Part shown: positions 7,930 through 10,915 of the stretch, one piece after another
Numbering within the stretch: the stretch's first letter is position 1
How the letters are laid out: every line of letters begins with the position of its first letter
Source: Myxococcales bacterium
GTDB taxonomy: Bacteria; Myxococcota_A; Polyangia; Haliangiales; Haliangiaceae
Direction of reading: 5' to 3'
NCBI GenBank assembly: GCA_016794525.1
Contig: JAEUJY010000053.1
Span: 1 to 32,352, forward strand
DNA: 32,352 bases
Program-made: the position numbers and the translations under genes
The notes under the pieces: generated by a model
The model's input: only the letters and a program-made list of their open reading frames with translations
Database searches by the model: none
What the model was told of the DNA's origin: nothing

Positions 7930-7943
<14 letters not shown>
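7644..7943 (-). CDS. Unknown 99-residue protein overlapping the recA 3' end
   Basis: The start codon lies 14 bases inside the recA coding region, in another frame, so translation is probably coupled to recA. The reading has almost exclusively G/C in third positions, supporting real coding. Residues 15-35 are Ala/Pro-rich. Residues 40-60 are Arg-rich ([15 protein letters not shown]), and the C-terminus ([16 protein letters not shown], then PPPSWWAR) looks globular. I do not recognise a family. RecX often follows recA in other bacteria, but nothing RecX-like is visible here. Confidence 0.6.
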
Positions 7944-8958
<1,015 letters not shown>

Positions 8959-9344: not shown

Positions 9345-9485
9345 GACGATCGGATGGGGAGCGTCGGGGCCGCGGGCGTGACGGTCGGGTGGGGATCGTC
9401 GGGCGTGACGGTCGGGTGGGGATCGTCGGGCCGCGCTGACGGTCGGGTGGGGATCGTCGGGCGTGACGATCGGGTGGGGATCGTC
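9345..9485 (+). repeat. Hairpin repeat cluster A (five 21-bp units)
   Basis: Five units in the same orientation start at 9345, 9380, 9407, 9438 and 9465. The idealised unit is a stem GACGATC, loop GGGTGGG and stem GATCGTC. The unit at 9465 is perfect; those at 9380, 9407 and 9438 have GACGGTC in the left arm (a G-U pair in top-strand RNA); the one at 9345 has two changes. Spacing of 27-35 bases is irregular and breaks reading frame, so the block is not coding. It lies downstream of the receiver gene's stop codon. Confidence 0.9.
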
Positions 9486-9496
9486 GGGCGCGGCGG

Positions 9497-9934
9497 CTAC
9501 GGCCAGCGCGGGCGCGACGGGGCGACGGCGATGGCGAGCGCGCGGCGGGTGATGCGCTCGGAGACGGATGAGACGACCGCGTGCGCGACCGCGGCCTCGA
9601 GGTCGACGCGGTTGATCGGCTTGGCGAGCACGTCGCTGACGTTGCGCAAGAGCAGGTCGTCGGCCATCTGGCGCACCCGTGCCGCGTCGCCGCCAGTCAC
9701 CAGCAGCACCGGCACGGTGAGCCCGCGGCGCTGCATGTCGGCGGCGAGCTCGAGGCCGTCGATCGGCCACATGCGCACGTCGATGATCGCGAGGTCGTAG
9801 CCGCCGCCAGGCAGCATCGCCAGCGCCGCGGTGGCCGTCGTCGCTTCGACGACGTGGGGCGCCAGGAGGCGGCGGATCGCGTCAGCGAACGGCCGATCGT
9901 CATCGACCAGGAGGATGCGATGTACTGCTTGCAT
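9497..9934 (-). CDS. Solitary CheY-like receiver protein
   Basis: The 145-residue protein is essentially one receiver domain. LLVDDDRP has the acidic pocket, YDLAIIDVRMWPIDG carries the phosphoacceptor Asp, LLVTGG has the switch Thr, and VLAKPIN has the conserved Lys. All key residues are present, unlike the regulator at 1445. A 25-residue basic extension (SSVSERITRRALAIAVAPSRPRW) follows where an output domain would be. The ATG at 9934 is preferred over GTG 9943 because AAGGTGG sits about 6 bases upstream. No kinase is adjacent. The gene is bracketed by ten copies of a hairpin repeat. It probably relays phosphate to or from a distant kinase or controls a partner by contact. Confidence 0.88.
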   Translation of the reverse strand: MQAVHRILLVDDDRPFADAIRRLLAPHVVEATTATAALAMLPGGGYDLAIIDVRMWPIDGLELAADMQRRGLTVPVLLVTGGDAARVRQMADDLLLRNVSDVLAKPINRVDLEAAVAHAVVSSVSERITRRALAIAVAPSRPRWP

Positions 9935-10019
9935 CGCGGCCACCTTAGCCGCCCGCGCCCCCGCGCCTCGGTCCGCCCCGGGTGCGCGACGGTGAGCCCC
10001 CGGGTACGCCTCCGGGCGT

Positions 10020-10178
10020 GACGGTCGGCTGGGGATCGTCGGGCGCGGCGGTGTGACGATCGGGTGGGGATCGTCGGGCGCGGCGGAGTGACGATCGGGT
10101 GGGGATCGACCGGCGGGGTGGCTGTGAGGATCGGGTGGGGATCGTTGGGCTGCGCGTGACGATCGGGTGGGGAGCGTC
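10020..10178 (+). repeat. Hairpin repeat cluster B (five 21-bp units)
   Basis: Five more units of the same repeat, in the same orientation, start at 10020, 10055, 10090, 10126 and 10158, spaced 32-36 bases. The unit at 10055 is a perfect hairpin (stem GACGATC, loop GGGTGGG, stem GATCGTC); the other four carry one to three changes. The core TCGGGTGGGGA is unchanged in four of the five. The block fills the gap between the receiver gene and the SRAP gene and may include regulatory sites of both. Confidence 0.9.
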
Positions 10179-10210: not shown

Positions 10211-10915
10211 ATGTGCGGCCGGTATCCATCGACGCGGGCGGCGCCGCTGATCGAGGCGATCGAGGCGGCGCAGGTGGGGGAGGCGGCGGTGGCGGGGGTG
10301 CTGGCGAAGGCGCCGGGCATGCCGAAGGGGCTGACGTCGTGGTGGGCGCCGCGGTGGAACGTGGCGCCGACGCAGCCGGTGCGCGCGGTGGTGCTGGTGG
10401 ACGGCGCGCCGCGGCTGACGCTGGCGCGCTGGGGCCTGGTGGCGCCGCCGCGCGGGCCGTCGCTGGCGCCGATCATCAACGCGCGCGCGGAGAGCGTCGC
10501 GACCAGCCGGCTGTTCCGCGGCGCGCTGGCCACCGGGCGCTGTCTGGTGGTGGCCGACGGCTTCTACGAGTGGCGCGAGCAGGACGGCGCGCGCGTGCCG
10601 GTGCGCATCGCGCCGGCCGATGACGATCGCGCGATCACGTTCGCGGCGGTGGCGCGCGACAGCACGCGCGATGGCCTGACGATTACCGAGCTGGCGATCA
10701 TCACGACCGCGGCGGCCGGCCTGGTCGCGGCGATCCACGAGCGCCAGCCGGCGGTGATCGCGCCCGGCGATCGCGCGCGCTGGCTGGACCCGGGCGTGCC
10801 GCCGGCGGGCGTCGCCGATCTGCTGGCGCCCAGCGCGCTGGCCGGCTGGGCGGCGCTCGACGCGCCGCGCTGGCTCAACAACGCGCGCGTCGAGCACGAC
10901 GCGGCGCCGTCCTGA
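10211..10915 (+). CDS. SRAP-domain protein (YedK/HMCES family)
   Basis: A 234-residue SOS-response-associated peptidase-like protein. It has the invariant N-terminal MCGR with the nucleophilic Cys2, WNVAPTQ (Asn50), NARAE (90-94), the active-site Glu120 in GFYEW, and His176 in IHERQP. The family forms a covalent thiazolidine link through Cys2 with abasic sites in single-stranded DNA and so shields them. The usual HxRMP motif reads HERQP here, a Met-to-Gln change beside the catalytic His. A 30-residue Ala/Glu-rich stretch before WNVAPTQ is longer than in E. coli YedK. The next gene follows after 8 bases, so they form an operon. Confidence 0.93.
   Translation: MCGRYPSTRAAPLIEAIEAAQVGEAAVAGVLAKAPGMPKGLTSWWAPRWNVAPTQPVRAVVLVDGAPRLTLARWGLVAPPRGPSLAPIINARAESVATSRLFRGALATGRCLVVADGFYEWREQDGARVPVRIAPADDDRAITFAAVARDSTRDGLTITELAIITTAAAGLVAAIHERQPAVIAPGDRARWLDPGVPPAGVADLLAPSALAGWAALDAPRWLNNARVEHDAAPS

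Follow-up and report, generated by a model that had tools for sequence, protein, structure and literature searches.

The ten 21-bp palindromic units that surround a solitary receiver gene in the window (the whole 32,352-nt stretch of DNA analysed here) belong to a sizeable family that is confined to its own genome, is arranged solely as head-to-tail arrays, lies mostly just behind gene 3′ ends, and retains its unit where the spacers have diverged. We propose, with a probability of roughly 0.55, that they represent two loci of a genome-specific, REP-like, array-only DNA repeat, which would have spread as a selfish or neutral element with the help of a putative enzyme in trans.

Re-examination of the sequence agrees with the first-pass annotation in its description of the locus: two arrays of five units each, all in a single (+) orientation, lie either side of the receiver gene, with W1 (9345..9485) comprising units at 9345, 9380, 9407, 9438 and 9465 (spacers of 14, 6, 10 and 6 bp), and W2 (10020..10178) units at 10020, 10055, 10090, 10126 and 10158 (spacers of 14, 14, 15 and 11 bp). 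The unit spacing of 27-36 within these arrays holds, as does the lack of compensatory pair changes; two units (9465 and 10055) match GACGATCGGGTGGGGATCGTC exactly, the remainder being 1-3 bases off. The idealised loop, GGGTGGG, stands as a local variant but not as the loop of the family, where the genome consensus is GACGATC-GGATGGG-GATCGTC (75 units), with A at position 10 in 63 of them. A search of the window with 3 mismatches allowed returned only 15 matches against 8.7 expected, such that significance depends on the exact and near-exact copies.

Several details connect the two arrays. The last W1 unit (9465..9485, +), identical to the local consensus GACGATC-GGGTGGG-GATCGTC, is followed by GGGCGCGGCGG, a spacer start also seen after two units of W2 (10020 and 10055). 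A GACGGTC arm and a GGGCGT lead, both typical of W1, are found in the first unit of W2, and GAGCGTC is present in both outer units of the window arrays. Given the common orientation, the unit variants and these spacer starts, W1 and W2 could derive from one ancestral array, either interrupted by the receiver segment or duplicated on either side of it. The outermost W1 unit (GACGATCGGATGGGGAGCGTC; 9345..9365, +) is identical in sequence to those of C37c, an array at another place in the genome.

The receiver gene itself (9497..9943, with 9934 as the other call for that end; minus strand) is real, with a Response_reg match at E=2.9e-17, and its stop codon lies 12 bp from W1. The upstream neighbour of W1 is recA (7930..8958, minus strand), and a gene of the SRAP (SOS response associated peptidase/HMCES) family (10211..10915, plus strand) starts 33 bp past W2. 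Could array, receiver and array together form a cassette that moves or recombines with the receiver gene as its cargo? We think this very improbable. The arrays do bracket, in direct orientation, a gene for which no syntenic orthologue was found in congeners, and accessory genes such as that for a CdiI-type immunity protein are likewise flanked by arrays on contig C37; however, 8 of the 13 arrays in the genome have no second array nearby, some sit between ordinary core genes (recF/gyrB), and the receiver segment is single-copy, with the next receiver matches in the genome only 36-39% identical. Deletion or duplication of the receiver by recombination between the direct repeats, as proposed at first pass, would be possible; an association of arrays with receivers is not supported, this being the one receiver among diverse array-neighbouring genes. 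The SRAP gene is also without synteny in congeners, and comparison with a defence library gave only weak, uninformative matches. Separately, the region bracketed by C37 arrays that contains the CdiI-type immunity gene maps to L031:7349-7903.

Within its own genome (9.8 Mb) the family comprises 13 arrays (at least 13 clusters) of 2-15 units and 75 units in all, 39 of which have the exact sequence GACGATCGGATGGGGATCGTC; they are found on contigs C162 (the window, 2 arrays), C37 (3), C39, C48, C79 (3), C86, C89 and C113. The 14-mer core at no more than 1 mismatch gives 76 genome matches, against 0 for a reversed-pattern control. All 75 units run head-to-tail, in one orientation per array, and arrays less than 5 kb apart (W1 and W2; the three on C37) share their orientation. 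Arrays also cluster, with three neighbour gaps below 3.2 kb, a figure reached in 0 of 5000 random placements. There are no convincing solitary copies: 21-mer copies at 0-1 mismatch all fall inside arrays, and matches at 2-3 mismatches are scattered, resembling the background of relatives. Unit-to-unit distances range from 26 to 75 and spacers from 5 to 54 genome-wide, with no common period. Thirteen arrays in one genome bear out the dispersed repeat that had been listed as one option, and the genome-wide core search suggested at the time revealed neither an even spread nor linkage to receivers, but clusters beside gene ends.

Units are 0.89-1.00 identical within arrays and 0.94 between them, whereas spacers compared between arrays sit at background identity (0.39-0.53). 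Within arrays, spacers are at or near the shuffled level in C37a, C37b and C39, and much more alike in C37c (0.93), C79_113 (1.00) and C113 (0.79). Some arrays thus arose recently, by tandem amplification of unit plus spacer; others are sufficiently old, or were built differently enough, for only the unit still to be recognised. Persistence of the 21-mer over decayed spacers may be read in two ways, and equally so: as copying of the unit alone, or as its retention by selection. Two unlinked arrays, on C48 and C79 (L033, L036), have the motif TCCGGATTGG in common in their spacers; it may be what is left of a half unit, or a sign that one array was copied to another.

The second of these readings leads to the main, and a serious, rival to a REP-like repeat: that the unit is the putative site of a DNA-binding protein, bound as a dimer on GACGATC-N7-GATCGTC, with the arrays providing multiple sites in the manner of operators, iterons or chromosome-organising proteins. 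We hold this as a tentative possibility. It would account for a 21-mer that is 89-100% identical inside arrays with decayed spacers, for units that are always clustered and never single, and for tolerated positions that are partly dyad-symmetric, with variation in the arms highest at positions 5 and 17 (7 and 11 of 75 units); the symmetry of the arms reaches a Pearson coefficient of 0.81 (p=0.03), but a Spearman coefficient of just 0.44 (p=0.33). A further point in its favour is that the core CCACGTGG of a second array family (see below) also occurs in parS-like sites near dnaA. Against it, the neighbouring genes have no common function, the unit is absent from all congeners, the arrays lack a common period, and the 7-bp centre is no less conserved than the arms (7 variant events over its 7 positions, versus 25 over the 14 of the arms), contrary to what one would expect of a dimer whose spacer is free; this last objection concerns a plain dimer operator, and would not apply to a protein that recognises the entire 21-mer. 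Across the 75 units, positions 1, 4, 6, 8, 9, 11, 13, 18 and 19 are invariant, and 5, 10 and 17 the most variable. The 5′ flank is mostly C, C/G, T/C and the 3′ flank RGG; truncated half units number just 2 and 1, with no polarity.

With regard to placement, of the 12 arrays for which both neighbouring genes were called, 8 begin no more than 35 bp from a gene 3′ end, against a mean of 2.4 for random positions inside the same gaps (p=0.0001), and 1 of the 12 lies within 35 bp of a gene start; gene ends were taken from a simple, purpose-written codon-score caller, rather than a published gene finder, so these distances carry some error. The neighbours (recF/gyrB, a gamma-glutamyl cyclotransferase, a metallo-beta-lactamase-fold protein, the CdiI-type immunity protein, a pilin-like protein, a metalloprotease and others) are functionally diverse. 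The edge of the C113 array overlaps with the stop codon of the gene next to it (L039:4832-4833). With a view to a strand bias linked to replication, array strand was compared with third-position skew; the two concur in 7 of 10 regions, although the skew is very weak in some.

A position behind gene ends would also suit transcribed arrays that act as RNA hairpins, be it as 3′-end stabilisers, as terminators, or as protein-sequestering RNA of the CsrA/RsmA-like kind, with a GGA in the loop. We consider this improbable. Folded as RNA, the perfect unit is predicted at -9.3 kcal/mol and the flank-extended CCT...AGG unit at -16.8, and the majority variant does present GGA in its loop (63 of 75 units; a CsrB/RsmZ-like RNA would be a transcript with GGA in every hairpin loop); yet GGA is replaced in most window units, there is no Rfam match, and the arrays abutting a gene are of mixed orientation relative to it (5 opposite, 3 same). 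Moreover, pairing beyond the 7-bp stem is not above the expectation from base composition, compensatory changes are lacking, and all six units of C37c carry a stem mismatch that halves predicted stability (-4.6). The first-pass idea of G-quadruplexes formed from G runs across units fares worse still, and we regard it as extremely improbable: GG/GGG and GGGG runs are present at the loop, and W1 fits a relaxed rule with loops up to 12, but the G3+N1-7 rule is satisfied by 0 of 13 arrays and the relaxed N1-12 rule by 1 of 13, and the spacer G runs of W1 are not kept in other arrays.

Outside its own genome, the family could not be found. Six congeners and 49 further relatives lack it, with 0-4 degenerate, scattered matches in each; a scan of 84,980 species genomes, which possibly did not include records of the own genome, gave 5 scattered single matches in unrelated taxa; and viral contigs gave no unit matches. 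The gap between recF and gyrB illustrates the point: in the own genome it spans 390 bp and contains a three-unit array, and in four congeners the syntenic gap has no unit and is shorter (about 70-240 bp, with the same gene caller). The insert is not a clean one: sequence other than the array is also present in the gap, and a target duplication was not observed. Absence from relatives, this gap included, argues against the old conserved role that had been put forward for examination through related genomes. We found no paper on such arrays in myxobacteria.

Among the closest of the repeat systems described elsewhere are REPs. These are short (20-40 bp) extragenic, multi-copy palindromes, some of them clustered, that fall into GTAG and CGTC super-families, are found chiefly downstream of coding regions, are in some cases species-specific, and occur predominantly as inverted (head-to-head or tail-to-tail) pairs (Di Nocera et al. 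2013, PMC3733652). At 21 bp and 75 intergenic copies, with two thirds of placeable arrays (8/12) close behind a 3′ end, the present family resembles them in size, dyad symmetry, placement and species restriction. It differs in having no unpaired GTAG or CGTC tag (CGTC lies inside the paired stem), in being exclusively head-to-tail, in its lack of singletons, its 7-nt loop and its total of fewer than 100 copies, and in having no unit beside any of the 17 Y1_Tnp genes of its genome, where REPs of the GTAG type have a RAYT flanked by the repeat. Lacking tag, inverted pairs and a linked transposase, it is filed here as REP-like and not as a member of a REP family. The SMAG elements of S. maltophilia, REP units amplified in tandem with flanking DNA (PMC2613905), offer a parallel for a palindromic unit reiterated at several loci with variable flanking DNA; SMAG, however, has GTAG and also occurs genome-wide as single units and pairs, as opposed to arrays only. 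Prokaryotic satellites, too, are tandem, intergenic, species-specific families scattered over the genome (Subirana and Messeguer 2019, PMC6749651), but require a near-constant repeat length, whereas here spacers vary in length and conservation is limited to the palindrome; individual arrays, C79_113 (33, 33) for example, do have a near-constant period. CRISPR arrays share direct repeats with dyad symmetry that are separated by spacers; in our case the repeat is just 21 bp, the spacers are short, variable in length (5-54 bp), often similar and in several instances identical within an array, the loci are many and lie beside ordinary genes, and no Cas proteins were found near the arrays in a Pfam scan of most flanking genes.

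We envisage that a REP-like or satellite-like repeat of this kind might have arisen by copying of a conserved 21-bp palindrome to about 12 intergenic sites, followed by local expansion through slippage, unequal recombination between direct repeats, or unit-level insertion, with arrays then persisting mainly where they would be harmless: right behind gene ends and away from start codons. As to the enzyme, our leading guess would be a Y1/HUH transposase that acts in trans on the single-stranded hairpin. The 17 Y1_Tnp genes of the genome are not found in array loci, no transposase adjoins the arrays examined, and a search of all 17 loci returned no unit within 4 mismatches. Fifteen of these loci form one multicopy family (L102-L116; about 80-95% DNA identity), the ends of which carry no unit; some of its copies adjoin hexanucleotide repeat tracts. 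A hairpin beside some Y1_Tnp loci, GGCGATCGGTCTGCGATCGCC, was considered as a related unit, but is 6 mismatches away and was judged a chance GATC palindrome. Further points weigh against REP-like spread: unit-wise transposition should leave solitary copies, and none were found; the units are all head-to-tail and without the tag; and a 21-mer kept whilst spacers decay could equally reflect selection for a bound site. As a rule, short palindromic repeats are put down to REPs that bear a tag, form inverted pairs and have a transposase of their own. The GACGATC-N7-GATCGTC family has none of the three, is without solitary copies, is known from a single genome and retains its 21-mer over decayed spacers; it offers a clean case in which to ask whether such repeats spread selfishly or are retained as protein-binding arrays. 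It also serves as a warning that an array beside one gene need not be that gene's regulatory element.

The genome contains a second genome-specific family of palindrome arrays, with the core TCCCACGTGGGA and 89 exact 14-mer matches, which emerged from a spaced-repeat search covering 0.76 Mb of the genome, a good part of which was selected for lying around known arrays; the same search recovered the known larger arrays. Its arrays hold 2-25 units with periods mostly near 25, many lie between convergent genes, and they map to L209:10512-11177, L211:19013-19224, L212-L222 and L224 (contigs C113, C24, C63, C99, C166, C70, C48, C50, C117, C140, C37, C91 and C167); several contigs have their start within or near an array of this family, and more arrays may therefore lie concealed in assembly gaps. 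None were found in the congener G006, and the family is absent from nearly all relatives. Its existence favours the view that this lineage tends in general to build palindrome arrays, over a locus-specific function. We also entertain, as a rather unlikely alternative, that the unrelated, genome-restricted families, of which there are at least two (GACGATC-N7-GATCGTC and the parS-like TCCCACGTGGGA), head-to-tail beside gene ends, are multi-site platforms for dedicated DNA-binding proteins; if so, these might be chromosome-organising or transcription-insulating factors that turn over between species.

Four copies of a parS-like palindrome, TGTTCCACGTGGAACA, lie at C79:125890-126156 (L130:12890-13156), about 10 kb from dnaA-dnaN-recF-gyrB, and have CCACGTGG in common with the second array family. 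Finally, a dispersed hairpin, GGGTCTTTCGMAAAGACCC, is mostly single, unlike the arrays; tallied strand-wise at up to 3 mismatches, it has 204 matches in its own genome and 96 in that of G006, many places being counted on both strands.
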